From Pelagibacterium limicola (GTDB lineage: Bacteria > Pseudomonadota > Alphaproteobacteria > Rhizobiales > Devosiaceae), in NCBI RefSeq assembly GCF_015694405.1, contig NZ_JADQDB010000012.1, positions 1 through 64,000 of the forward strand: a DNA stretch of 64,000 nt. The letters run 5' to 3'. The notes beneath the pieces are model-generated. The model made no database searches. It saw only the letters and a list, made by a program, of their open reading frames with translations, and was not told the origin of the DNA. Position numbers and translations under genes: made by a program. Shown here piece after piece: positions 36,843-62,606 of this stretch (within the stretch, counting starts at the first letter, position 1; each line of letters opens with the position of its first letter).

Positions 36843-38144
36843 TCAGCGCGAAAGCTGGGTTTCGTACTCGCGCTGGACGGCTTCGAGCAGCCCCACGGGG
36901 GTCTGCTGTCCTCCAGCCATCTTCTGCAGTTCGGGTGTCCAGCCGGCCGCGAATATGGCACCGGTAGCGTTCGCGATGAAGTCCATCGCGCCATTGTCCT
37001 GTGCAAGAATGGCGCCTGCAGCAAGGGACTGTTCGGTCACAGATCCGGGCTCGACGGCGGGCATGGCCAGATCGGTCGGCCCGCCCGGGTTCGAACCGCC
37101 CACGGCGACGTTGATCTTACGGGCCGCCTGGTTGCGCGCAACCCAATCGAGAAAGAAGGCGGCGCATTCGGGATTGTTTGCCTTGGCGCCGATCCCGTAG
37201 GTGAGCGGTGCCGACATGGAGGCGTGACGTCCTCCATCCTCAAGGCTCGGCATGATGAAAAAGCCGAACTTGCCCGGGGCATTGCCATCGAGATTGCCCG
37301 ATTCCCAGTCGCCGTTGAACATGAACAGGCCTTCGCCACCCATAAAGCGGCTCATCATCTGGAAATATTCAATGGCGTTGGCGTCAGAAGGGAAATAGCC
37401 AGCCTCGATCCACGCGTTCAGGTGCTCTGCGGCTTTGAGGTTGTCTTCCGTGTGGATGGTCGCGCCATCCTTCTGGAAGATCCAGTCGTTGATCGGCTCT
37501 GGAGGGCCATAGGCTCCCATCAGGTTCTGCAGAGGAAAGGCAAAGCCGGCGGTACCCTTGTTCCACTGCATGATGGGCTGAATGCCAGCCTGCTTGGCGG
37601 CCGCCATTATGGCGTCCAATTCCGCCAGCGTCGACGGGGGCTCGGCCATCCCGATCTGGGCGGCCAGTTCCCTGTTGTAGAACACGCCAGTCATTGAATA
37701 GTTGAGACCCATGCCATAGAGCGATCCGGTCCCACGGGGGCGTCCACCCTCCTCGACGCGCAGCTGCACCAGCTGTCCCGCTGGAAACTGATCCCAGCCC
37801 AATGCCTCAAAGTATTCATCGAGATTCATGAGCAGATTGTTGGCCACCAGATCGGTGATGGACGGCAAGCGGATCAGGTCCGGTGCGTTGCTTTCGGAAA
37901 GTATGCGCGGGGAGTTCTCCATCATGTTGGCGAACTGGTCTTCCTTGATGTCGAAGGTGACATTGGGAAACTGACGCATGAACTCCTCGGCCAACCGCGT
38001 GGGCAGCGGAAAGCCGGTTTCGAAATAGGCATTGAGCGCAATGGGGTCCGTACCGCAACTAGGCGCAGCAATGGCTGTGCCGGTTGTGGCGGCCACCGAA
38101 AGCACCAAGGCAACACGAAGTGCATGGAATGAACGAGTTTTCAC
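36843..38144 (-). CDS. Sugar ABC transporter, substrate-binding protein
   Basis: 433 residues, CUT1 (family 1) solute-binding protein. Signal peptide with cleavage near GTAIAAPSC. Fold markers: ALNAYFETGFPLPTRLAEEF and MGGEGLFMFNGDWESGNL. The GTG at 38144 is chosen because GGAGGAGG lies 5-6 nt upstream and the product starts MKTRSFHALR. A palindrome of the LacI type (38189-38204) lies 45 bp upstream. It binds an unknown sugar, possibly the same glycoside handled by the GH32-like enzyme nearby. Confidence 0.9.
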   Translation of the reverse strand: MKTRSFHALRVALVLSVAATTGTAIAAPSCGTDPIALNAYFETGFPLPTRLAEEFMRQFPNVTFDIKEDQFANMMENSPRILSESNAPDLIRLPSITDLVANNLLMNLDEYFEALGWDQFPAGQLVQLRVEEGGRPRGTGSLYGMGLNYSMTGVFYNRELAAQIGMAEPPSTLAELDAIMAAAKQAGIQPIMQWNKGTAGFAFPLQNLMGAYGPPEPINDWIFQKDGATIHTEDNLKAAEHLNAWIEAGYFPSDANAIEYFQMMSRFMGGEGLFMFNGDWESGNLDGNAPGKFGFFIMPSLEDGGRHASMSAPLTYGIGAKANNPECAAFFLDWVARNQAARKINVAVGGSNPGGPTDLAMPAVEPGSVTEQSLAAGAILAQDNGAMDFIANATGAIFAAGWTPELQKMAGGQQTPVGLLEAVQREYETQLSR

Positions 38145-49363: not shown

Positions 49364-50251
49364 ATGAGGAAGGCCTTGAGGTTGCGGCGTTTTCTGACAG
49401 TCGTGTTTAGCATTTTCTGCGTGGTTCATGCTCCGTCTGCCTGGGCTGTCGAGGATACAATAATTGAGGCGGCCCGGCAGGCCGAGATCGCGCTTGATGC
49501 CCGGGTCGGGCTTGCTATCCACGATACCGGCAGCGGTCAGCGCTGGCTCTACAACGCCCATGAGCGGTTCCCGATGGCCAGCACGTTCAAGGTCCTCGCA
49601 TGCGGGGCACTGCTTGCGCGTATTGATGCGGGTGAGGAGGATGGAAGTCGATTGATCCCGATCAATCCGTCAGATCTCGTCACCTATTCCCCCGTGACCG
49701 AAGGGTGGGTAAACGAGGAAGCAACGCTCGACGACCTTTGCGCGGCCACGATGCGCACGAGCGACAACACGGCAGTGAACAAGGTGCTTGAGGCACTCGG
49801 TGGACCAGAGGCGCTGACATCATTCATGCGGTCCCTGGGCGATGAGGTTACACGACTGGATCGCTGGGAGACAGAGCTCAACCAGGCCACGCCGGGTGAT
49901 CCACGCGACACGACCTCGCCGGCAGCTATGGTGAATTCACTTCAGGCTCTGGTTCTCGGCGACGTATTGACCGCAACCTCACGCGAGACGTTGACGGAAT
50001 GGCTCGTGGCCAACGAGGTGGGCGGACCGCCGCTGCGAGCGGGCATACCCGACAACTGGCGTATCGGTGACAGGACAGGAGCGGGAGGGCACGGCACGCG
50101 CGGAATAACTGCCGTCATCTGGCCACCGCAACGCGATCCCCTCATAGTCGCGATCTATATCACCGAGACCGAGGCAGAAATGGATAAGCGCAACGAGGCG
50201 ATTGCCGGTATTGGCCGGGCGCTGGCGGATTGGGTAAGAGCTGCGCCGTAA
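49364..50251 (+). CDS. Class A beta-lactamase, RTG (carbenicillinase-like) type
   Basis: 295 residues with signal peptide (FLTVVFSIFCVVHAPSAWA). Active-site motifs: Ser73-Thr-Phe-Lys76 (STFK), Ser133-Asp-Asn, Glu169 (WETELN) and Arg237-Thr-Gly in place of the usual Lys-Thr-Gly. The Arg at this point is typical of the CARB/RTG subgroup. Cys80 and Cys126 could form the class A disulphide. ATG at 49364 has no SD; TTG codons at 49376 and 49382 follow AGGAAGG and may be the real start. Periplasmic penicillin hydrolysis is expected. Confidence 0.9.
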   Translation: MRKALRLRRFLTVVFSIFCVVHAPSAWAVEDTIIEAARQAEIALDARVGLAIHDTGSGQRWLYNAHERFPMASTFKVLACGALLARIDAGEEDGSRLIPINPSDLVTYSPVTEGWVNEEATLDDLCAATMRTSDNTAVNKVLEALGGPEALTSFMRSLGDEVTRLDRWETELNQATPGDPRDTTSPAAMVNSLQALVLGDVLTATSRETLTEWLVANEVGGPPLRAGIPDNWRIGDRTGAGGHGTRGITAVIWPPQRDPLIVAIYITETEAEMDKRNEAIAGIGRALADWVRAAP

Positions 50252-50666: not shown

Positions 50667-51899
50667 CTAGCGTTCCACCTGCAAGGTGCGTGTTCGCACA
50701 AAGCCCAGCAAGCACCCGCCCAAGACCAGGATTAACCCGAAACCTGCTATCACGGACACGTAAGAACCTGTGAAATCATATGAATAGCCTGCAATCATGG
50801 GTGCTGCCATGGTCCCGGGCACCTGCAGCATCATCAAGCTACCCTGGACAGTCGCAAACTGCCCATCGCCAAAAAGTCTCGAGCACAGCACGAGAACCAG
50901 CAGTGTTGGCGCGCCTGCCGAAATGCCCAGGGCGAACACCACGATCAGCATTGCACCAAAACCCGGTGCAAGCGCGAAGCTACCGATCGCCAGCCCTTCC
51001 AGCACCAGAAGACCTCCAAGGATGAACGGCAGAATCTGGGCATCCACTCGATCGGCAACAAAACCACTCAGCAGCCGCACGGGGATCGAAAGCAGGATCA
51101 TTGCGCCGAACAGAGACCCCGCAAATACCGGATCAAGCCCATAATCGGTCATCAAAGGCACAAGGTGAATGGAAAGTCCCGTGGTCACCGCCGCCTGGAC
51201 GGCAAAAGCGACGGCAACGATCCAGAATGCCGGCCGGCCCAAGATGGTGCGCATCCTCTGCCGGTCGGGAACCGGAACGGGTTCGAGGTCAGGGGCCGTC
51301 CGCCCGGGCACAGGCGGCGGGATCAGACGTTCGGCACGAAACCAGATGAGAGGAACCGGCACGAGCAAGGCCATAAAACCCGCCCAGGCAAGGCAGGTCT
51401 GTCGCCATCCGATTGTTTCAACCATGACCGTAACGACGGGAACCAGTAGTGAACTGACCACTGCCGCGATAGAAAACCGTACAGCTAGCGCCATGCCACG
51501 TTTGTGTTCGACTGCAGCGACCACCAGCTTGTCGAGCGCCACGGTAAACCCCACAGCGACGCCTGCGGACAGCAGCAGCGACCACGCCAGATAGAGCCCG
51601 ACCTCGTTCTGTACGAACCCGAGGGCACCAAGTCCGATCGTGGTGAGGACCATGCCCGCAGCAACGATCCAACGCGGTCCAGAGGCATCGGTGATGCGTC
51701 CGACAATTGGGGACGATATTCCGGCGACTAGCCGTCCCAGACCAATGGCGGCGGAGACCGTTCCTCGACTGGTATCAAGATCGACCGCGAGCGGCTTGAG
51801 CAGAGCGGAAACCGCAAAGGCCGCAAACCCGTGCCCAAAACCTGTAAGCGCCCCCGTGGTTGCGACCAGCCCCCATGGGGTTCTCTGCTGTCGGCTCAT
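50667..51899 (-). CDS. MFS transporter, monocarboxylate-type
   Basis: 410 residues, about 12 membrane helices. Motif A-like loops: GRITDASGPRWIVAAG and GFVADRVDAQIL. The layout (GALTGFGHGFAAFAVSALLK) resembles the oxalate/formate and monocarboxylate porters. The ATG at 51899 overlaps the TRAP large permease stop by 4 bp, so it is the last gene of the CoA-transferase/TRAP operon. Organic acid transport is inferred from family and context. Confidence 0.78.
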   Translation of the reverse strand: MSRQQRTPWGLVATTGALTGFGHGFAAFAVSALLKPLAVDLDTSRGTVSAAIGLGRLVAGISSPIVGRITDASGPRWIVAAGMVLTTIGLGALGFVQNEVGLYLAWSLLLSAGVAVGFTVALDKLVVAAVEHKRGMALAVRFSIAAVVSSLLVPVVTVMVETIGWRQTCLAWAGFMALLVPVPLIWFRAERLIPPPVPGRTAPDLEPVPVPDRQRMRTILGRPAFWIVAVAFAVQAAVTTGLSIHLVPLMTDYGLDPVFAGSLFGAMILLSIPVRLLSGFVADRVDAQILPFILGGLLVLEGLAIGSFALAPGFGAMLIVVFALGISAGAPTLLVLVLCSRLFGDGQFATVQGSLMMLQVPGTMAAPMIAGYSYDFTGSYVSVIAGFGLILVLGGCLLGFVRTRTLQVER

Positions 51900-53191
51900 A
51901 GATTGGGCAGCCACAGCACCAATATCGGGAAGGCAATCAGAAGTCCGACATGAAGCACATCGGCAGCAACAAAAGGCAAGGCGCCCTTGAATATCTTGTC
52001 GAGCGGGATGTCCTTGGCCACGCCTGACAAAATGTAGACGTTCATCCCCACGGGTGGCGTGATCAGCGCGATCTCGGTCATGCGGACCACCAGGACACCA
52101 AAGAGGACCGCGTCAAAACCGATTGTCGTGATGAGGGGGAAAAATAGCGGAATCGTCAGCGTCATCATCGCCGATGCATCCAGCACCATTCCCAGAACCA
52201 GATACACGCCAAGCACCAAAAACAGGACCACCATTGGAGAGAACCCGCCATCGGTGACGAAATTGACGATGTGCATCGGGATCGTGCTGGCCGTTATGAA
52301 GCTGTTGAACACCAGCGCCCCGAATAGAATGCCAAAGATCATCCCGGTGGTCTGGAGGGTCGCATATATGGCTTGCTTGGCCGTTGCCCAGTTCAACCGG
52401 CCACGTGCGACCGATACGATGATCGCGCCGAAAGCTCCGATCGCTCCTGCTTCAGTGGGTGTAAACCATCCCAGAACGATCCCGCCCATGACGAGCCCGA
52501 ACAAAAAGATCACTTCCCCGGTACTCCGTAGCGCCCGGACCTTTTCCATGAAGGTGAATTTTGGTCCGCGCGGCCCGGCATTAGGATCGAGCCGGCACCA
52601 AATTGCGATGGTGACGATGTAGAACAGGGCCAGCAGGATGCCCGGTACGATGCCGGCGGCAAACATCGCCCCGATCGAGGTCTCGGTGAGTATGCCGTAA
52701 ATAATGAACATCCCGCTAGGCGGGATCAGCGCACCAATGGTACCGCCAGCCACGACGCTGCCCGAGGCCAACGACACGTCGTAGTTATGCTTGCGCATTT
52801 CAGGCATGGCGACCAGCCCCATGGTAGCGGTCGTAGCCAGAGAAGATGCGGAGACTGCAGCAAACCCCGATGAAGCCCCAATGGTGGCCATCGCCAGTCC
52901 CCCACGTCGGCGGCCAAGCCATTTTGCGGCGAAATCATAAAGATCGCGACCGATCCCGGAGGCAAACAAAAGATGTGCCATAAACAGGAACAGTGGAATT
53001 GTGCCGATGGCGTGATTGGTGGCCAGATTGAATGTGGTGACCCCGATGCGCACGATTGCCGCATCGAAGCTGACTAGAAAGGCAAAACCGGCAAATCCCA
53101 CGAGTCCCATGGCAAACCCGATGGGCATGCCGAATCCGATGAGCGAAAACAGGATCGCAAGCCCCAGAAAGCCGACGGTGACTGATGTCAT
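51896..53191 (-). CDS. dctM: TRAP transporter large permease, DctM type
   Basis: 431 residues, many hydrophobic segments, with the DctM signature (GASSGFAAVSASSLATTATMG, LIPPSGMFIIYGILTETSIG, LVLGMVLDASAMMTLTIPLF). It is the Na+-coupled transmembrane part of a TRAP carboxylate transporter. It overlaps both neighbours by 4 bp (ATGA). Confidence 0.92.
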   Translation of the reverse strand: MTSVTVGFLGLAILFSLIGFGMPIGFAMGLVGFAGFAFLVSFDAAIVRIGVTTFNLATNHAIGTIPLFLFMAHLLFASGIGRDLYDFAAKWLGRRRGGLAMATIGASSGFAAVSASSLATTATMGLVAMPEMRKHNYDVSLASGSVVAGGTIGALIPPSGMFIIYGILTETSIGAMFAAGIVPGILLALFYIVTIAIWCRLDPNAGPRGPKFTFMEKVRALRSTGEVIFLFGLVMGGIVLGWFTPTEAGAIGAFGAIIVSVARGRLNWATAKQAIYATLQTTGMIFGILFGALVFNSFITASTIPMHIVNFVTDGGFSPMVVLFLVLGVYLVLGMVLDASAMMTLTIPLFFPLITTIGFDAVLFGVLVVRMTEIALITPPVGMNVYILSGVAKDIPLDKIFKGALPFVAADVLHVGLLIAFPILVLWLPNL

Positions 53192-53706
53192 AATTTAGTA
53201 TCGAGCCTCTTGGATTGATCCTGGAGTTCTTTTCCGCTCAAGAGCTTGATGCCCTGCCAGACCAGAACGATCACCAGCAGCACAATCGCAGCGGCCATGG
53301 TCCAGCGGAATGGCGCGACCGGCACATTGATGATTGGGGACAATTCGCCTTGCGCACCGCGGCGGATGGCTTCCCGGATCGTTGCCCAGGCAACGAAAAC
53401 CCAGAACAGCGAGCCAACGATCAGCATGAGGGCATTGATCGCATGTCGGAGCCGAACATTTGCGATTCTATCGACAAACAGAACTACCCTTGTGTGCTCG
53501 TTCTGCATAGCCGCATATGCCAGCGAGAGCGAGACCGCAGGAATAAGCAGGAGTTCGGACAGCGAATATGTGCCCGGGAATGCGATCGACAGCGCGCGAA
53601 ACACCACAGTCGTGACCGTCAGGGCCATTAACGCGAGAATGCTGGCTACCCCGAGAATTCCGGCACCCTGACATATGCGCGTGAGTATCGTATCGAACCG
53701 CTGCAT
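53188..53706 (-). CDS. dctQ: TRAP transporter small permease, DctQ type
   Basis: 172 residues with four membrane segments and the DctQ motif near the middle (QNEHTRVVLFVDRIANVRLR). ATG at 53706 follows GGAGG. It partners DctM and overlaps it by 4 bp. Confidence 0.88.
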   Translation of the reverse strand: MQRFDTILTRICQGAGILGVASILALMALTVTTVVFRALSIAFPGTYSLSELLLIPAVSLSLAYAAMQNEHTRVVLFVDRIANVRLRHAINALMLIVGSLFWVFVAWATIREAIRRGAQGELSPIINVPVAPFRWTMAAAIVLLVIVLVWQGIKLLSGKELQDQSKRLDTKL

Positions 53707-53768
53707 GAGCGCCTCCGCTCCCGTAGCCGCCCCTGGCACACAAATGTGCGAGGGGCGGACATTTGGTG

Positions 53769-54782
53769 TCAGTCTTCGATAGCCGAGCGAATTCTGGCGA
53801 GAATTTCAGTTCCCGGCAGCCCGATTGAATCAAGTTGTTCCGCCGTGGCCCGGGCGGCTGGCACGAAGGCCTCGGAATACTCGGCGATAACGACAGGATC
53901 GACCTCGTTGAATATCACACCCTGCTCTTCACCATATCGGCGGCCCGCATCCTCGGACTCCTGAGCATAGTCGAATGTGGCGCGTGTCCACCATTCGATA
54001 TTGTCATCGAATACCTGCTGGATATCTTCAGGCAGGCTGTCCCAGACATTCGCATTGATCGCGCGGGACGGATAAGCCCCACGCGAGTGCGGCAGCTCGG
54101 AATAATAGCTGATCACCTCAGCAAAGCTGAGCGAGCGAAGCGCTTCGTATGGCGCGATCACGCCATCGAGAACCCCGCGTTGGAGCGAAGGATAAGTGTC
54201 GGTCATTGGCATGGTGACGCCTTCCGCTCCATGTGCGGCCAAAGCGCCAATATAGTCGACCGCCGAGCGGATACGCAGGCCCTGGAGATCGGAAATCTGA
54301 GTGAACGGTCCATCACGCAGCATCAGATGCATAGGCGTGCCCACATTGTAGGCAAGCACCTTCACCCCCTCAAGTTCCTCGGCAAACTGGGGATAGTCCT
54401 CCCAAAGCCCGAGATAGACGTCGAGCACTTCGAGCGCGTCGTCATATCCATAAAAGAATTGCGGGGTCAGTCGACTTAAGTCGTACCCCGAACTGGCATA
54501 GATAGGCGCGATGAAAGCGATATCGGCAACACCTGCCGCCAACTCGTCCACACCTTCACGCGAATTGATGAGCGCACCGCCCCAGAAAGGGGTGATCTTC
54601 ACACGCCCATCGGTCTGCGCGTGAATACGCTCGATCCACTCTTCATCGGCCTGCCCATAGGGGTGGGTCGGAGAATACGTGGTCGAATAGGTCAATTCGA
54701 ATTCAGCGGCCGTAACCGCATTTGCCGCGAGCGAAAGCCCGGTGGCAGCAAGCAAGGTCAGTGAAAGTTTTCTTATAGTCAT
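53769..54782 (-). CDS. dctP: TRAP transporter substrate-binding protein, DctP type
   Basis: 337 residues with signal peptide (LTLLAATGLSLAANAVTAAE). The DctP fold: ELTYSTTYSPTHPYGQADEE, conserved Arg region LRIRSAVDYIGALAAHGAEG that binds the ligand carboxylate, and AINANVWDSLPEDIQQ. ATG at 54782 follows GGAGGAG. It delivers the substrate, likely a carboxylic acid, to DctQM. It lies 48 bp after the CoA-transferase gene in the same operon. Confidence 0.9.
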   Translation of the reverse strand: MTIRKLSLTLLAATGLSLAANAVTAAEFELTYSTTYSPTHPYGQADEEWIERIHAQTDGRVKITPFWGGALINSREGVDELAAGVADIAFIAPIYASSGYDLSRLTPQFFYGYDDALEVLDVYLGLWEDYPQFAEELEGVKVLAYNVGTPMHLMLRDGPFTQISDLQGLRIRSAVDYIGALAAHGAEGVTMPMTDTYPSLQRGVLDGVIAPYEALRSLSFAEVISYYSELPHSRGAYPSRAINANVWDSLPEDIQQVFDDNIEWWTRATFDYAQESEDAGRRYGEEQGVIFNEVDPVVIAEYSEAFVPAARATAEQLDSIGLPGTEILARIRSAIED

Positions 54783-54830
54783 GAGGTCTCCTCCCAATTT
54801 TCAAAGACCGGTGAAGAGCAAGGCACTCCC

Positions 54831-56000
54831 TTATGCGCCCTGCCCGGAAAGTTGCTTGATCTGTTCGGTGTCAAGCCCGATACCTGACAGAATATCGATC
54901 GTGTCCGCACCGGGCGCCCGGCCCAGATTGGCGATTCTCGTCTCACCGCCTACGCGGACCGGTTGACCCAACTGGCGTATCGCGCGTCCATCCGATCCTG
55001 GATGCGAGATCACCATCCCGCGTGCTTGGTTGTGAGGGTCGGTGAGCGCTTCGGCTACCGAAAGCACCGGGGCGAACTGGGTGCCCGCGGCTCCCAAAAT
55101 TTCGAGCCATTCTGCTCGATCTTTCGAGGCGAAAATCTCTTCGAGCGCGCTCCGGATTTCGGCACGCCGCTCGGTGTTGTGCTGCTCGGGTATAAGATCG
55201 GAACGCCCCACGGCCTCGCAGAACTTTGCCCAATAGCGCGGCTCCATATCGGTGGTACAAAGGAAGGAGCCATCCCGAGTTTTCCAAAGCCCCATGTCCG
55301 CGCGGCGCGACCCACGAGGGGGAATTTGAGAAACGTCGGGATGGCGGGAGAGTACATTAACCAGCAGGCTCATTGCGCAGTCGCTCATGGCCACATCCAA
55401 ATGCTGGCCATGCCCGGTCATTTCGCGCGCGCGCAAGGCCGCGAGTATGGCAAACGCAGCGTGCGTCCCGGTGATCACGTCGGCGGCAGGAATACCGGCG
55501 AAGTTCGGGGCCTCGGGATCTTCGCCGACACGCGACTGCACTCCCGCGATTGAAAGGGCGATAGGGTCGTGACCGGGCTTGTCTCGGTAAGGCCCCGATT
55601 GCCCGCACAACGTCAGTGAGGCATAGATCAGACGCGAATTGTCGGCGCTTAATGCGTCGTATCCCAACCCCAGTGACGCGAGAACTCCCGGACGATAATC
55701 CTCGACCACGATATCGGCTGTCGCGACCAGCGCCTTGATTGCTTCGAGCGCCTTGTCATCCCCGATTTCAAGCATGATGGAACGCTTATTGCGTGCCAGA
55801 ATGTCGGTCTCGCGCAAGCGAAGGCGTTCCTGGTCCGAGAGCCTATCCCAACCAAAGACTTTCGCCTGTTTGGCGATTTCACGCGGGTTCTCGATGCGGA
55901 TAACGTCCGCGCCCATATCGGCCAATAACCACGTACAATACGGACCCGGCAGGAACTTGGAAAAGTCAATGACGCTCAGGCCTTCAAGCGGCAAGCTCAT
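54831..56000 (-). CDS. Family III (CaiB/BaiF) CoA-transferase, copy A
   Basis: 389 residues. LSVIDFSKFLPGPYCTWLLA and ADVIRIENP near the start; the catalytic Asp is Asp174 in GIPAADVITG, and GHGQHLDVAM follows. The ATG at 56000 overlaps the copy B stop (ATGA). It transfers CoA between acids; the substrate is not known. The operon order is C-B-A-dctP-dctQ-dctM-MFS. Confidence 0.9.
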   Translation of the reverse strand: MSLPLEGLSVIDFSKFLPGPYCTWLLADMGADVIRIENPREIAKQAKVFGWDRLSDQERLRLRETDILARNKRSIMLEIGDDKALEAIKALVATADIVVEDYRPGVLASLGLGYDALSADNSRLIYASLTLCGQSGPYRDKPGHDPIALSIAGVQSRVGEDPEAPNFAGIPAADVITGTHAAFAILAALRAREMTGHGQHLDVAMSDCAMSLLVNVLSRHPDVSQIPPRGSRRADMGLWKTRDGSFLCTTDMEPRYWAKFCEAVGRSDLIPEQHNTERRAEIRSALEEIFASKDRAEWLEILGAAGTQFAPVLSVAEALTDPHNQARGMVISHPGSDGRAIRQLGQPVRVGGETRIANLGRAPGADTIDILSGIGLDTEQIKQLSGQGA

Positions 56001-57091
56001 CGCCCCCCCCATCCTTCAAACTGCGATGCGGGAATCGGGGCCTTCAAGACACGTTCCGACCCATCCATGGCGTCACAATGAAACATCGGGCCAGGTAGAT
56101 TGATCACCTTGCCGGTCTGCTCGTCAGTTACAGGCACAAACAGCCCGCGCACCTTGAGATGCTCGCTTTCGCGCACGTCACGCGGCTCGGCAATTACGGA
56201 AAGTCCCCAGCCCTTCTCAAGCGACCAGGCGCCAAGTTGCTGCCTTGTGTTTTCCGCAAAGAATGCGCCAACAATCGCTTGCCAGCGCTCGATCGTTTCC
56301 TGGGGCGTGTCGGCAACAAGGGTATTGTCCCAATCAATGTCGCTTAGCTCGCCTGAGCAGCCTTGGTCGGCCATTACCGAAACCAAGGCTCGCATCATCG
56401 AGGGGTTGTCGATCATGGACCAGGTAACGTGCCCGTCCTTGCATGGCCAGATCTGGCGCACACCGGACTTCCCCCGCACCAGCATGTTGCCTTGGCGGCG
56501 ACCGATTCGGCCGGTCCATTCATACATGACCGCTTCGCGATAATTGGCAAGCGTCGCGCTCTGGAACGCCGAAAGACTCGCCTGCTGGCCGTGGCCCGTA
56601 GCGCGGCGAGCATACAGCGCCAGAAGAGCAGCGGTGGCGGCCTGAATTCCCGTCAGCACATAAGCTTGCCGGCCTGGAAACTTGAGCGGAGGACTTTGCG
56701 GATCACCTGTCACGTGCATGAGCCCGGAGAGTGCAAATAGCGTTAGATCTGTTGCCGGGCGCCGGGCGTAAGGACCTTCGCTCGAAAACGGGGTAACCAG
56801 AACATGAATGGTTTCCGGGTTGCCGCTCAGCGCCTCGGCAAGGCCGAACTTGTCTCCCAGCCGCTGTCCATCGAGAACGATGTCGGCTTGTCGTGCCAGG
56901 GCCACAATGGCATCCCGGGAGTCGGCATTTATGCGCGTCTTGCCGTGATGGATAGCAATGTCGGCCTCCGGTCGACTTCCGCTCACCGAAACGGAAACGA
57001 CGTCGGCCCCCATCTCGGACAGCATCCGGCCCCCGAAATCGGTCAACCCGTCCGCAATTTCCAGAACCCTGATTCCCTCGAGCAGATTCAT
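55997..57091 (-). CDS. CaiB/BaiF family protein, copy B, lacking catalytic Asp
   Basis: 364 residues, shortened N-terminal domain. The fold is kept (LEIADGLTDFGGRMLSEMGA, ALLALYARRATGHGQQASLS), but where the other copies have the catalytic Asp (GIPAADVITG in A) it reads GRQAYVLTG: Tyr144 replaces Asp. It is thus likely inactive as a classical CoA-transferase and may be a structural or partner subunit of A or C, as in the heteromeric family members. It overlaps both neighbours (ATGA). Confidence 0.85.
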   Translation of the reverse strand: MNLLEGIRVLEIADGLTDFGGRMLSEMGADVVSVSVSGSRPEADIAIHHGKTRINADSRDAIVALARQADIVLDGQRLGDKFGLAEALSGNPETIHVLVTPFSSEGPYARRPATDLTLFALSGLMHVTGDPQSPPLKFPGRQAYVLTGIQAATAALLALYARRATGHGQQASLSAFQSATLANYREAVMYEWTGRIGRRQGNMLVRGKSGVRQIWPCKDGHVTWSMIDNPSMMRALVSVMADQGCSGELSDIDWDNTLVADTPQETIERWQAIVGAFFAENTRQQLGAWSLEKGWGLSVIAEPRDVRESEHLKVRGLFVPVTDEQTGKVINLPGPMFHCDAMDGSERVLKAPIPASQFEGWGGR

Positions 57092-58283: not shown

Positions 58284-58312
58284 ATAATAGTTCAGTAAGT
58301 GAACTAAGTCAA
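58284..58312 (-). promoter_or_regulatory. Promoter of the CoA-transferase/TRAP operon
   Basis: On the minus strand TTGACT (58312-58307), a 17-nt spacer, TATTAT (58289-58284). The operator palindrome at 58288-58306 fills the spacer, so a bound repressor would directly block polymerase. It begins just inside the stop of the dehydratase-like gene upstream. Confidence 0.7.
58288..58306. promoter_or_regulatory. MarR operator, site 1
   Basis: TAGTTCA-GTAAG-TGAACTA, a perfect 7-bp inverted repeat with 5-nt spacer. Identical arms occur at 60744 and 61399. It is located in the promoter spacer of the copy C operon. Confidence 0.8.
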
Positions 58313-59583
58313 TTCTTTTCCGCCAGCACAGCATCGAGCACAGGCGAAATCCGCCCGACCATGGCCTCGCGATCCCAGCGGCGTCGGTCGACCATGTCCG
58401 ACCACACCTCGATGACGCGTATGCCGGCCTCTTCGAGCGCCTTTTTCGCAAACAGCGACCCATGTCCGGAAAATCGGTCGTGCTCGGGAATCAACATCAA
58501 TGCGACGTCGATCCGGTATTTCCTGGCCTGCTCGACCATCCACGCATTGATCCAAGGGGGTTGGTGGAGTTGCTCGTTCATTGCCGACACTCGGGCTGCG
58601 AGCGCGCGAAGCGGATCGCCGTGATCTTTCCGGATATATCCGTCAGCTGCGAAAGGCAGGTACATTGACCAAGCGAATACCGCGCCATGGCTGTCCTCGA
58701 ACGCCGAGTAAAAGCTCGTGTCGAACCATAGCCCTGCGCCGATCCACATCATGCGGATCTTTTCGTTCTCGACCACCGCTTGCCCGGAAATAACCCGCTC
58801 CTCCAATTCGTCTCGAAAACGCGTGGCATGTTCGATGGCCCAGCCCGAACCGCGATGCCACTGGGGGATCATCACATTGGGGATCTGTTCGGAAATGCGG
58901 ATCGGGCAGCGGGGCGCGTTTGCAATGAGATCGCTGGCCTGCTCAAAAATCTGTTCCTGGGCGTTTATCGCTTCCATGTATTGGGAGAAGCTTTGCCTGT
59001 CGAACCCCGCGCCCGTCACCGCTTCGAGTCGATCGATCAGCATTTCGAACTCGGCGACCATGAGATCAAGCCGGTCGCTGCCATAGAGCGTTTCCCAATC
59101 TTCGCGCGCCAACTCCCACCATCGGGGATGAGGGTTCGGCACCCCGGGAGAGGATAAAAGCACCAAAGGAGCGCCTGTCTTTTCTGCCCAAAGACCGAAG
59201 ATTTTCTGATGATCGTCAGCGCTTTGACGCGCACACAAAATGGCGGGTCTGGGCAGACCGCCCCAAGGCTGACGATCGACATTCCCCTCAAGTTCGGCAA
59301 TCAGAGGCAAGCTCGAATACCGGGCCAGTCGGTCGTGAAAACCCAACTCTACCATATGATCGAAATAGAATTCCGAAAGCTGCTTGGCCGAGATGATCGC
59401 GGACCACCACTGGTTGGTCACGATAGGCAACCCGATATGATGGAAAAGCTCGTGCGGGGTATCGGCATTGACGAAGGCGTATCGAGCGCCCGAGGTGATC
59501 TGCGCACGCAACCCCTTGGCCCATTGCCGTTGATAGTCCGTTGCGATTGCGCTCGATTGGAGGGGTTCATAGGTCGGAGTCAT
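58309..59583 (-). CDS. 2-Hydroxyacyl-CoA-dehydratase-like subunit 1
   Basis: 424 residues of the HgdB/BcrC-like family, judged by FVNADTPHELFHHIGLPIVT at the N-terminus and by the C-terminal pattern (KALEEAGIRVIEVWSDMVDR, RRWDREAMVGRI). Only two cysteines stand out (ILCARQ, APRCPIRI), and the family's usual cluster Cys near the C-terminus is replaced (LIPEHDRFSGHG). ATG at 59583 shares a base with the upstream stop (TGATG), with GGAGGG upstream. Function unknown. Confidence 0.65.
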   Translation of the reverse strand: MTPTYEPLQSSAIATDYQRQWAKGLRAQITSGARYAFVNADTPHELFHHIGLPIVTNQWWSAIISAKQLSEFYFDHMVELGFHDRLARYSSLPLIAELEGNVDRQPWGGLPRPAILCARQSADDHQKIFGLWAEKTGAPLVLLSSPGVPNPHPRWWELAREDWETLYGSDRLDLMVAEFEMLIDRLEAVTGAGFDRQSFSQYMEAINAQEQIFEQASDLIANAPRCPIRISEQIPNVMIPQWHRGSGWAIEHATRFRDELEERVISGQAVVENEKIRMMWIGAGLWFDTSFYSAFEDSHGAVFAWSMYLPFAADGYIRKDHGDPLRALAARVSAMNEQLHQPPWINAWMVEQARKYRIDVALMLIPEHDRFSGHGSLFAKKALEEAGIRVIEVWSDMVDRRRWDREAMVGRISPVLDAVLAEKN

Positions 59584-60725
59584 CAGAAACCCTCCAGACT
59601 TGCAGCAATAGCCTTCAAGGACTCTGCCAGCCATTGCTCGTCAGGCTCCGGATCGCGGAAACCGAGATTGATAAATCTCGTTCCACATCGTTCCAACTGC
59701 GCAGCCAGGCTGGGAATCTCCCAGCCGAATGTGTCGTCAGTCTGGGCAAGCTGGCACACCACGATATCGCAGCGCGCGGTTGTCAGAGCCTCAACCAAAG
59801 CGGTGCGATGAAGGCTCGCAGGGGTGATCCGGGGACAGAAGGGATCCGCAGCCAAAGCGGCGAGGATGGCGTCGATCTCTTCCGCTCCAGCCAAATCGAG
59901 CGGCCACATCTGCCCCCAGGGCTGAAGGTCGCAGACAACCGGACCGATACTCTCGAGCATTTCATAGGTCGCGGTCGAAGCTAAAGCTGACCCCACCAGC
60001 CCGATGCGACAACCGCTCGCAGGCGATCGCACCTTGACGCCCTGGGCGCGTTCGAGCAAATCGGCATGCTCGGAGGCAGACATGAACCTTCCCGCGTTGC
60101 GCCATCGCATGGCGGTTCCCCCGGACATCGTATTACCAACAGTTTCCTGAAGGGCGCCCAATAAACGCGATTGACGAGCCTGCTGCTGGCCAGCATGAGC
60201 GAGCGCCAGAGAATCGGGAGGCGTCAATCCAATTTCTTTCAGAAACCCAAATAGTCGGTCGGCCTGCCTGCGGTTGAAATCGCGTACAGGCACTGAGTCG
60301 GTATGCACGAGATTCCAAAGGAACAGAGGCGGCACACCCTTGTCGGCCTGCCCTTGGCGAACCCATTCGGTGGCGTATTGATAGGCAATCAGTGCAGATG
60401 CGTCGTCGCGAGGGAATATAATTGCGCGATAGGGCGAAAACGCACCGTCAAACAGCCTTCTGAGAAACCGACGGACTTCCGCGTCCACAAATGGTTCGAT
60501 CACCTCGTCAATCGGAGAACGCTGCCCTCCAGCGTTTTGGCGAGACCCCATCGCAAGTTGCACCGGGATCGCACCAGCCGCTTCTATAAGAACCTCGGGC
60601 GCGCAATTGCCAAACACGCCAACGCAAGGGGCGCCATGGCGCCCCGCATAAAGATCGCGCTGGTCGAAAGCATCTGATAGCGCTACCGCGGCACCGCTCG
60701 CGTCTGGGGTTACTATAACGGGCAA
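59583..60725 (-). CDS. 2-Hydroxyacyl-CoA-dehydratase-like subunit 2
   Basis: 380 residues. The N-terminal family motif reads VGVFGNCAPEVLIEAAGAIP, where canonical members have a Cys two positions earlier. The C-terminal region (CDIVVCQLAQTDDTFGWEIP) has Thr where the family usually has a Cys before Asp. TTG at 60725 is the start: GGAGG lies 5 nt upstream. First gene of a two-gene operon whose promoter is covered by MarR operator site 2. No activator ATPase gene (HgdC type) is seen in the window. Confidence 0.65.
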   Translation of the reverse strand: MPVIVTPDASGAAVALSDAFDQRDLYAGRHGAPCVGVFGNCAPEVLIEAAGAIPVQLAMGSRQNAGGQRSPIDEVIEPFVDAEVRRFLRRLFDGAFSPYRAIIFPRDDASALIAYQYATEWVRQGQADKGVPPLFLWNLVHTDSVPVRDFNRRQADRLFGFLKEIGLTPPDSLALAHAGQQQARQSRLLGALQETVGNTMSGGTAMRWRNAGRFMSASEHADLLERAQGVKVRSPASGCRIGLVGSALASTATYEMLESIGPVVCDLQPWGQMWPLDLAGAEEIDAILAALAADPFCPRITPASLHRTALVEALTTARCDIVVCQLAQTDDTFGWEIPSLAAQLERCGTRFINLGFRDPEPDEQWLAESLKAIAASLEGF

Positions 60726-60743: not shown

Positions 60744-60762
60744 TAGTTCATTTTATGAACTA
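60744..60762. promoter_or_regulatory. MarR operator, site 2
   Basis: TAGTTCA-TTTTA-TGAACTA, perfect arms. On the minus strand it covers the -10 box TAAAAT (60755-60750) of a promoter whose -35 is TTGACG (60778-60773), spacer 17 nt. It sits 19 bp before the dehydratase-like TTG and 90 bp before the divergent MarR start. Confidence 0.82.
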
Positions 60763-60852: not shown

Positions 60853-61374
60853 ATGACCAACGGCGTGCCGGCCGACCGGACAGATACTGTTACGCTAGGG
60901 CCCTTGCGCGAGAACCTACCCTTTCTCACACGAGCGCTGCGGGCCTATATCCGGGCTGAAAACGCCGAATTCTTTGCCGAATTCGAAGCCGAGCAGGGCG
61001 AAATCGTTGTCTTGAGCGTCATCGGGCTCAATCCGGGCATCTCCCAGAACGATCTAGCAGCAATCCTTGTCTTCAAGAAATCCGCCATCACCAAGCTCGT
61101 CAAGGAACTTGAAGCGCGCGGACTCGTGGAACGTGCCAAGGTTGCCGCTGACAAGCGCTACAATGCATTGAAACTCACGGAAGTCGGCGAGGCGAAATAC
61201 AAAGCCATGGGGGATCGTATGGTAGCCCAACACGCTGCCTTTCTTGAGCCTTTTGATGAATCCGAGCGAGCGACGCTTTTTGCCTTGCTTAATCGGCTTT
61301 ACGCCCATTTCGGGGAACGCCATGCAAAGCGGACCGGCACCAGCAGCGCAATCGTCGGCTCCGCAGACGACTGA
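60853..61374 (+). CDS. MarR-family regulator of the CoA-transferase island
   Basis: 173 residues. MarR fold: SVIGLNPGISQNDLAAILVF as HTH helices, KKSAITKLVKELEARGLVER as recognition helix and start of the wing, AADKRYNALKLTEVGEAKY as wing. It lies between two copies of the 19-bp palindrome (60744 and 61399), with a third at 58288; self-control and control of the three operons are inferred. RBS AAGGGG/AAGG upstream of ATG. MarR proteins usually release DNA when they bind a small aromatic or CoA-ester ligand. Confidence 0.9.
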   Translation: MTNGVPADRTDTVTLGPLRENLPFLTRALRAYIRAENAEFFAEFEAEQGEIVVLSVIGLNPGISQNDLAAILVFKKSAITKLVKELEARGLVERAKVAADKRYNALKLTEVGEAKYKAMGDRMVAQHAAFLEPFDESERATLFALLNRLYAHFGERHAKRTGTSSAIVGSADD

Positions 61375-61436: not shown

Positions 61437-62606
61437 TTGGCACAGCCCCTTGCCGGTGTTCGCATCGCCGATTTCAGCCATGTTATTGCTGGACCGCTCG
61501 CCACCCATTTCCTGTGCCTACTGGGCGCAGAAGTGATCAAGATCGAACCGCCCAGTGGCGATGTGTTGCGCAATTATACCCAGAATAAGCGGTTGCGGGG
61601 CATGGCAGAGCCGTTTATCGGCGCCAATGCTGGAAAAAAATCTGTCGTGCTCGATCTCAAGTCCGATTTCGGGAAACATGCGGCACGCAAACTGATCGAA
61701 TCCTCGGACATCCTTGTCGAAAATTTCCGGCCCGGGGTCATCTCCCGGCTCGGGCTCGGCTATGAAGATCTAAGCCAGATCAATCCTCATCTCATCTTTT
61801 GTTCGATTTCGGGGTATGGGCAGTTCGGACCGATGCGCGATTATCCCGCCATCGACCAGATCATCCAGAGCGTATCGGGCCTGATGGGGCTTTCAGGCGA
61901 ACCAGGATCCTCGCCGATGCGGGTGGGATTTCCCATAGTGGATACCTACAGCGCGCTTCTGGCCGCCTTCGCCATCCAGTCCGCTTATGTCCAACGCGAG
62001 CGCGACCCTGCGAGGGCCGGCCAGTATATCGACATGTCCATGCTCGATGCCTCGCTCGTCATGATGGCCTCAGTTATCAACCCGCTCGTGATATCGGGTA
62101 CCGAGCCACGTCGAACGGGAAATCGTGGCTTTTCGCTTGCCCCCACAGCCGACACATTCGAAACGGCAGAGAACGCAGTGACCATTGGCGCCGTGCAACA
62201 GAACCAGTACGAGCGCTTGTGCATGGCGCTTGAACGCCCCGACCTTCTGAGTGACCCGCGTTTTTCCGACCCCGACGCCCGAATGGCGCACGACAAGGAA
62301 CTTCAGGGTGAGCTGGCAAAGACATTTAAGACCCGCACCGCGCTCGAATGGGAGTCGATCCTTTCACAAGCCGGGGTTCCCGCTGGTGCGGTGAGACCGG
62401 TGAAAGATGTGCTCGAACTTGCCCAACTGGAAGGGCGCGGCCTCAAGCTGGAAATCGATGTTCCAAATCCCGCTGTTGGACGCACGTCCATCCTCAATGC
62501 AGGGTTTCGGTTCGCCCATGACGGTCCGGGTGTTTCTGCCCCGCCCCCACTATTGGGCGAGCACACCGAGCAGATCCTGGCCGAACTGGGCCTCATGCCC
62601 TCATAG
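61437..62606 (+). CDS. Family III (CaiB/BaiF) CoA-transferase, copy D
   Basis: 389 residues. VRIADFSHVIAGPLATHFLC and AEVIKIEPPSGDVLRNYTQN at the start; the catalytic Asp is at 169 (GFPIVDTYSAL), and GQYIDMSMLD follows. TTG start at 61437 with GGGAGGA 8 nt upstream. Monocistronic, under MarR operator site 3. It is the most canonical of the four copies. Confidence 0.9.
   Translation: MAQPLAGVRIADFSHVIAGPLATHFLCLLGAEVIKIEPPSGDVLRNYTQNKRLRGMAEPFIGANAGKKSVVLDLKSDFGKHAARKLIESSDILVENFRPGVISRLGLGYEDLSQINPHLIFCSISGYGQFGPMRDYPAIDQIIQSVSGLMGLSGEPGSSPMRVGFPIVDTYSALLAAFAIQSAYVQRERDPARAGQYIDMSMLDASLVMMASVINPLVISGTEPRRTGNRGFSLAPTADTFETAENAVTIGAVQQNQYERLCMALERPDLLSDPRFSDPDARMAHDKELQGELAKTFKTRTALEWESILSQAGVPAGAVRPVKDVLELAQLEGRGLKLEIDVPNPAVGRTSILNAGFRFAHDGPGVSAPPPLLGEHTEQILAELGLMPS

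Follow-up and report, generated by a model that had tools for sequence, protein, structure and literature searches.

An anaerobic dehydratase scaffold apparently reused without its iron-sulfur cluster: a gene pair lacking cluster cysteines and activator

The 2-hydroxyacyl-CoA dehydratases and benzoyl-CoA reductases form a family whose low-potential radical chemistry needs iron-sulfur clusters, ATP and the absence of oxygen. According to the report on the class I benzoyl-CoA reductase BzdNO (PMC11971306), the catalytic cluster of BzdO is held by Cys95, Cys128 and Cys380, Glu65 and His131 lie at the Fe-bound water, and the thioester oxygen is held by Tyr97, Tyr298 and Gln274; Cys-to-Ala variants of BzdNO are described there as too unstable to study. 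For 2-hydroxyisocaproyl-CoA dehydratase, HadBC, three cysteines per cluster are reported (PMC11574389). Here we describe a gene pair, A and B, found in a window of 64,000 nucleotides (the whole stretch of DNA that was analysed), a pair that seems to put this anaerobic scaffold to another use, acting on CoA-bound acids without a cluster. The explanation we favour, and consider reasonably probable, is that A/B is a cluster-free, redox-neutral acyl-CoA enzyme built on the dehydratase/reductase architecture and working without an ATP-driven activator. No description of cysteine-free members of the family, or of this gene cluster, was found by title or abstract in the open-licence PMC literature.

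The two genes are an adjacent pair on the minus strand and, as the sequence-only reading had proposed, they resemble 2-hydroxyacyl-CoA dehydratases. Gene A (59583..60725) encodes 380 aa counted from a TTG codon, a start that is uncertain, and gene B (58309..59583) encodes 424 aa from an ATG at 59583, which is likely its start; within the sequence TGATG the stop codon of A overlaps the start codon of B, and GGAGGG lies ahead of this overlap. Both proteins exceeded the cut-off of the HGD-D profile PF06050 (28.4 bits), B at 117.5 and A at 58.8 bits, and nothing else in the 3.47 Mb assembly matched this profile. Against the NCBIfam equivalogs B stayed far under the cut-off (best 31.7 versus 750 bits) and A matched none. 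At the gene level, an association of A with B is seen in the overlap of the two, in the presence of A at 82 of 85 loci compared (within 400 nt of B in 58), and in a protein from genome G596 that joins both in a single frame.

AlphaFold2 models of the single chains, made from input alignments of 58 (B) and 54 (A) sequences, reached mean pLDDT values of 93.2 and 93.5, respectively. When compared with solved structures (VIA-align), the B model was nearest to HadB (3o3m_A; Z 39.2, rmsd 2.6, 393 aligned), followed by MbdO (Z 36.8), BzdO (36.7) and then HadC (31.1); the A model was nearest to BzdN (8s02_B; Z 37.8, rmsd 2.7, 359 aligned), followed by HadC (37.5), MbdN (35.2) and then alpha-type chains at 27. 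Since by Z score B is nearest to the substrate-binding subunits and A to BzdN and HadC, we classed B as alpha-type and A as beta-type, and the models predict for B the alpha-subunit fold and for A the beta-subunit fold of 2-hydroxyacyl-CoA dehydratases/benzoyl-CoA reductases. The pair thus resembles HadBC (3o3m/3o3n) in both predicted folds and in the HGD-D profile, where 17% and 15% of the structurally aligned residues are identical, and resembles BzdNO (8s02) and MbdON (9g87) in its folds. Unlike HadBC, however, it has neither ligand cysteines in either subunit nor an activator.

The difference from BzdNO lies in the residues that hold the cluster and the substrate. In a profile alignment Cys95, Cys128 and Cys380 of BzdO correspond to Ala87, Ala122 and Asp369 of B. 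The same B positions came out of a second alignment, made with MAFFT and including six canonical sequences (L005, L006, two of L007 and two of L021), all of them Cys at exactly three columns. The only cysteines of B are Cys117 and Cys226. In A the ligand columns hold Asp81, Asp108 and Asp330, the first two placed by one alignment at low identity, and none of 86 A homologues has Cys at any of the three (the first and second columns each have 3 gaps), a pattern beyond chance; the third is Asp in 75 and Glu in 11. Cys exceeds 30% of rows in no column of A. On these alignments, the three cluster-ligand cysteines are missing from the alpha subunit B, and Cys ligands are missing from the beta subunit A. 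The sequence-only reading had expected Gly, Thr and His/Asp at the ligand positions; His/Asp stands (His368-Asp369 in B), and Gly and Thr give way to the two alanines. It had named beforehand a structure-guided alignment with cysteines in the cluster site as a possible refutation, and neither the structure-guided nor the profile alignments placed one there. We also considered a classical dehydratase with misplaced cysteines, and rejected it on the agreement of the two alignments on the B sites.

Around the former cluster, the BzdO acid/base residue Glu65 is replaced by Gln58, so that the acid/base Glu is absent (Gln in 72 and Thr or Pro in 4 of the 76 B rows defined below), Gln274 by Ala283, and His131 is matched by His125. 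The two thioester tyrosines are retained as Tyr89 and Tyr308, in 76 of 76 rows. The argument from these tyrosines is based on BzdO, HadB and MbdO; among the six canonical sequences only one (L007b) has Tyr at both columns, which counts against the explanation we favour. Since the ligands, an activator and the acid/base Glu are all lacking, we did not file A/B as a functional dehydratase or reductase.

That no activator gene lies in the window had been noted from the sequence, and the absence extends to the whole 99.6%-complete assembly, in which the activator profile TIGR00241 had no match. The broader profile PF01869 matched twice. One match adjoins a LacI-type regulator and NanE- and sugar-permease-like genes, the other upp- and zwf-like genes, as we take them to be from their translations, and because of these neighbours we took both matches for sugar kinases; an activator elsewhere in the genome was therefore rejected. 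TIGR00241 had no match in any of five searched genomes carrying a pair without ligand cysteines (G000, the window's own, G009, G012, G022 and G026), and did match in G047 and G055, which carry canonical HGD-D proteins. Among 36 further genomes, those reached through loci being of unstated completeness, an activator exceeded the cut-off in 1 of 15 with zero-Cys pairs (G815), in 2 of 16 with two-Cys pairs (G824 and G826) and in the three-Cys genomes G818 and G819, with weaker matches in G810, G816 and G822; there was no match in G436 (three Cys), G596 (none) or G744 (Cys state not read). The pair plus activator in G815 speaks against an activator-free enzyme. The alphaproteobacterial B of G436 (L114:6165-8024, plus strand) has all three ligand cysteines, yet its genome gave no activator match.

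A scan of genome contigs found 347 relatives of B, of which 80 were kept. In iterated profile searches, which drew in canonical sequences, only B matches above 500 bits were counted. The set of 88 B homologues leaves out L062 (a split frame) and the window's own copies, L001 and L002, so the window is absent from it; removing 13 near-copies and adding the window gave the 76 rows, beside which the six canonical sequences were placed. Three ligand cysteines are present in 2 of the 88 homologues, two in 42 and none in 44. The first column reads C44/A20/P24, the second C44/S24/A15/G5 and the third D44/N22/T11/S8/C2/H1, with Gly at the second site confined to a sister clade (5 of 88). By record title, the three-Cys proteins come from two deltaproteobacterial MAGs (L059 and L060), the two-Cys proteins from sphingomonads, Acidobacteria, Bacteroidota, Burkholderiales and others, and the zero-Cys proteins, where named, from Alphaproteobacteria. 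Genome G022 holds two zero-Cys pairs from different B clades, L009/L017 and L014/L113 (P-G-D and P-S-D at the ligand sites).

Among the 76 rows, 38 have no ligand Cys, 36 two and 2 three. On the B tree these states need 4 changes (shuffled mean 32.4), and the zero-Cys rows fall into two groups, one of 34 and one of 4; because the canonical outgroup branches are saturated (about 10), the root and the order of the Cys losses are unproven. One possibility is that other ligands, for example Asp369, His125 and their neighbours in B and the three Asp in A, allow A/B to go on binding an iron-sulfur cluster or one metal ion. All 44 zero-Cys B sequences have Asp in the column of Asp369, all 86 A homologues have Asp or Glu at the third site, and the four cysteines found in 36 of 36 two-Cys rows, in a C-x-x-C motif (site 1) and a C-x-C motif (site 2), could hold a metal. 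However, the window's B is left with its two cysteines, sites 1 and 2 in zero-Cys B are Ala, Pro, Ser or Gly, and no activator was found in the genome, so we judge retained metal binding to be quite improbable.

What is conserved in B does not follow the cysteines. Fifty columns are invariant across the 76 rows whatever their Cys state, including Tyr89, Tyr308, Arg119, Arg277, Glu296, Arg331, Asn336, Glu337 and His340, and just two of them, Arg277 and Ala329, hold throughout the six canonical sequences as well; the conservation of the family is therefore not tied to the ligands. His125 is found in 31 of the 38 zero-Cys rows and is absent from the residues shown for two- and three-Cys rows; its absence from the other 7 weakens its case as a catalytic residue in the cluster-free enzyme. 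So does the G596 fusion for others: this protein (L112:9760-12159, minus strand, one frame of about 800 codons) also lacks ligand cysteines, with Glu, Thr and Pro at the three sites of its B half, and has Val, Gly, Asp and Arg at 119, 336, 337 and 340. Either these four residues are not needed in every relative or the G596 protein does something else.

Downstream of B on the same strand lie C1 (57088..58230) and C2 (55997..57091), class III CoA-transferases (PF02515) with Glu and Gln, respectively, at the catalytic-Asp column; the start of C2 overlaps the stop of C1 (ATGA). Among solved structures C1 is nearest to chain B of benzylsuccinate CoA-transferase (9fn0; 174.6 bits) and C2 to chain A (78.5 bits), so that the two subunits match two different chains, as in a BbsEF-like pair. 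They differ from 9fn0 in matching it at these scores only and in being one gene in sphingomonads. We had considered C1 and C2 dead for want of the catalytic Asp, a view dropped because 9fn0 chain B also has Glu there. Next come C3, a third CoA-transferase (PF02515) with Asp (54831..56012), and genes for a TRAP substrate-binding protein, DctP (53769..54797; PF03480), a probable small permease, DctQ (53188..53739; assigned by position and by a weak match, E about 6e-6, to the annotated small permeases of L018/L022), a large permease, DctM (51896..53191; 383-393 bits against ORFs that coincide with annotated TRAP large permeases), and an MFS transporter (50667..51914; PF07690), a neighbour conserved in 7 loci, the window included, all on the minus strand. 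No ligand of DctP stood out among its many solved relatives. On the plus strand, beyond A, are a MarR-family regulator (60853..61374; PF12802/PF01047) and C4, a CoA-transferase with Asp (61437..62606; PF02515, 377.8 bits), which scored 356-373 bits against CoA-transferases of sphingomonad and Rhizobium loci.

The linkage to CoA-transferases recurs. A CaiB gene is present in 80 of the 85 loci, a non-Asp CaiB lies within 6 kb in 66 and an Asp CaiB is found in 62, counted without those CaiB matches whose catalytic column is a gap. Sphingomonad loci carry the fused C2-C1 gene between A and B, together with TRAP genes and a C4-like gene. The cluster varies by lineage, which is a point against the pathway we propose: Maritimibacter-type loci have one Asp-type CaiB, with no BbsEF-like pair or TRAP cluster seen, and further neighbours, depending on the lineage, are CapA-like, CocE-type hydrolase, TonB receptor, P450 and MFS genes.

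This close linkage, the non-Asp CaiB nearby, the fused gene lodged between A and B, and the Gln in place of the catalytic Glu65 of BzdO would all suit a non-catalytic A/B, a CoA-ester-binding or regulatory partner in complex with C1/C2. On the other hand, the polar set Arg119, Glu296, Arg331, Asn336, Glu337 and His340, fixed in all 76 rows, looks catalytic, and some lineages have A/B without the BbsEF-like pair. The initial reading had offered two options, a repurposed enzyme without cluster and a protein that binds CoA esters as a partner to the CoA-transferases, and our results support this pair of readings; because the thioester tyrosines are retained and 50 positions are invariant, we favour an enzyme and regard a purely binding role as unlikely.

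The palindrome AGTTCA-N5-TGAACT occurs as an exact match between B and C1 (58289..58305), between A and the MarR gene (60745..60761) and before C4 (61400..61416). Genome-wide, with up to 1 mismatch, it was found at these three places only (a reversed control pattern gave 1), and no further copy marks a co-regulated activator elsewhere, which the sequence-only reading had listed as contrary evidence. At 2 mismatches the window has a fourth site at 38119, at a laxity for which shuffles give a mean of 1.02. Of 117 loci, 24 contain the exact palindrome, mostly at matching places; 15 of these 24 belong to the 80 kept B relatives. It is likely the MarR operator, and the arrangement suggests that A-B, C1 to TRAP and C4 form one unit under MarR.

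Against three relatives, pN is 0.134-0.139 and pS 0.692-0.755 for B, and 0.314-0.33 and 0.712-0.73 for A, with synonymous sites near saturation in both. With pN far under pS, both genes look to be under purifying selection, and on this ground we rejected decay. A relic that lost its cluster would account for the missing ligands and activator and for the presence of HGD-D genes in only 3 of 13 genomes of the same genus; nevertheless the frames are open in many genera, neighbours and palindromes are conserved, and B has its 347 relatives, so a decaying pair is very improbable indeed. In samples of 397 genomes of the order and 385 of the class, 2 and 4, respectively, had a B relative; the pair is rare but widely scattered.

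The cluster-free, redox-neutral enzyme that we favour draws on the predicted folds, the empty ligand sites in both subunits, the lack of an activator match in the pair-bearing genomes G000, G009, G012, G022 and G026, the kept tyrosines and invariant columns, purifying selection, the TGATG overlap and G596 fusion, the CaiB linkage and the three palindromes. In such an enzyme, A and B would form a heterodimer without iron-sulfur cluster or ATP-driven activator. A carboxylic acid imported by the TRAP transporter would be converted to its thioester by the neighbouring class III CoA-transferases, the thioester would enter the ancestral pocket of B, with Tyr89 and Tyr308 on its oxygen, and ordinary side chains could carry out a step free of radicals and of net redox change, for instance a hydration or dehydration, an isomerisation or a lyase-type cleavage. 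Candidate catalytic residues are Asp369 (the former ligand position), His125 (in the place of BzdO His131), Arg119, Arg331, Asn336-Glu337 and His340, and the local MarR protein would control the unit.

We put forward more tentatively, inclining slightly to doubt, that a radical iron-sulfur scaffold has here given rise to a new class of enzyme. The cluster ligands would have been lost stepwise, from three Cys through two (C-x-x-C/C-x-C) to none, and their part taken over by Asp369 and His125, in an ordinary acid/base site or one that holds a single metal. The outcome would be an acyl-CoA enzyme that tolerates oxygen, needs no activator and catalyses a new reaction, encoded together with CoA-transferases, BbsEF-like and other, in a self-contained operon under MarR control. 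A branch that is conserved yet lacks ligands and activator would show this scaffold to be capable of another role, and relatives with three, two and zero Cys offer a series for testing evolutionary cofactor loss, with A/B-type proteins as natural cluster-free forms beside the unstable BzdNO variants. The locus points to an acid uptake and CoA-activation pathway of unassigned role, and records named '2-hydroxyacyl-CoA dehydratase' include ones whose partner A has no ligand Cys at all.

Finally, three smaller observations concern the surroundings of the pair. The CaiB beside two-Cys pairs in Acidobacteria-type loci (L064-L080) has Gly at the catalytic-Asp column, and sphingomonad, acidobacterial and deltaproteobacterial loci (L018, L019, L022 and L059-L080) repeatedly have CapA-like genes (PF09587) next to the pair. 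In the window, the plus-strand ORF at 49364-50251 resembles by eye a class A beta-lactamase-type protein (STFK, SDN).
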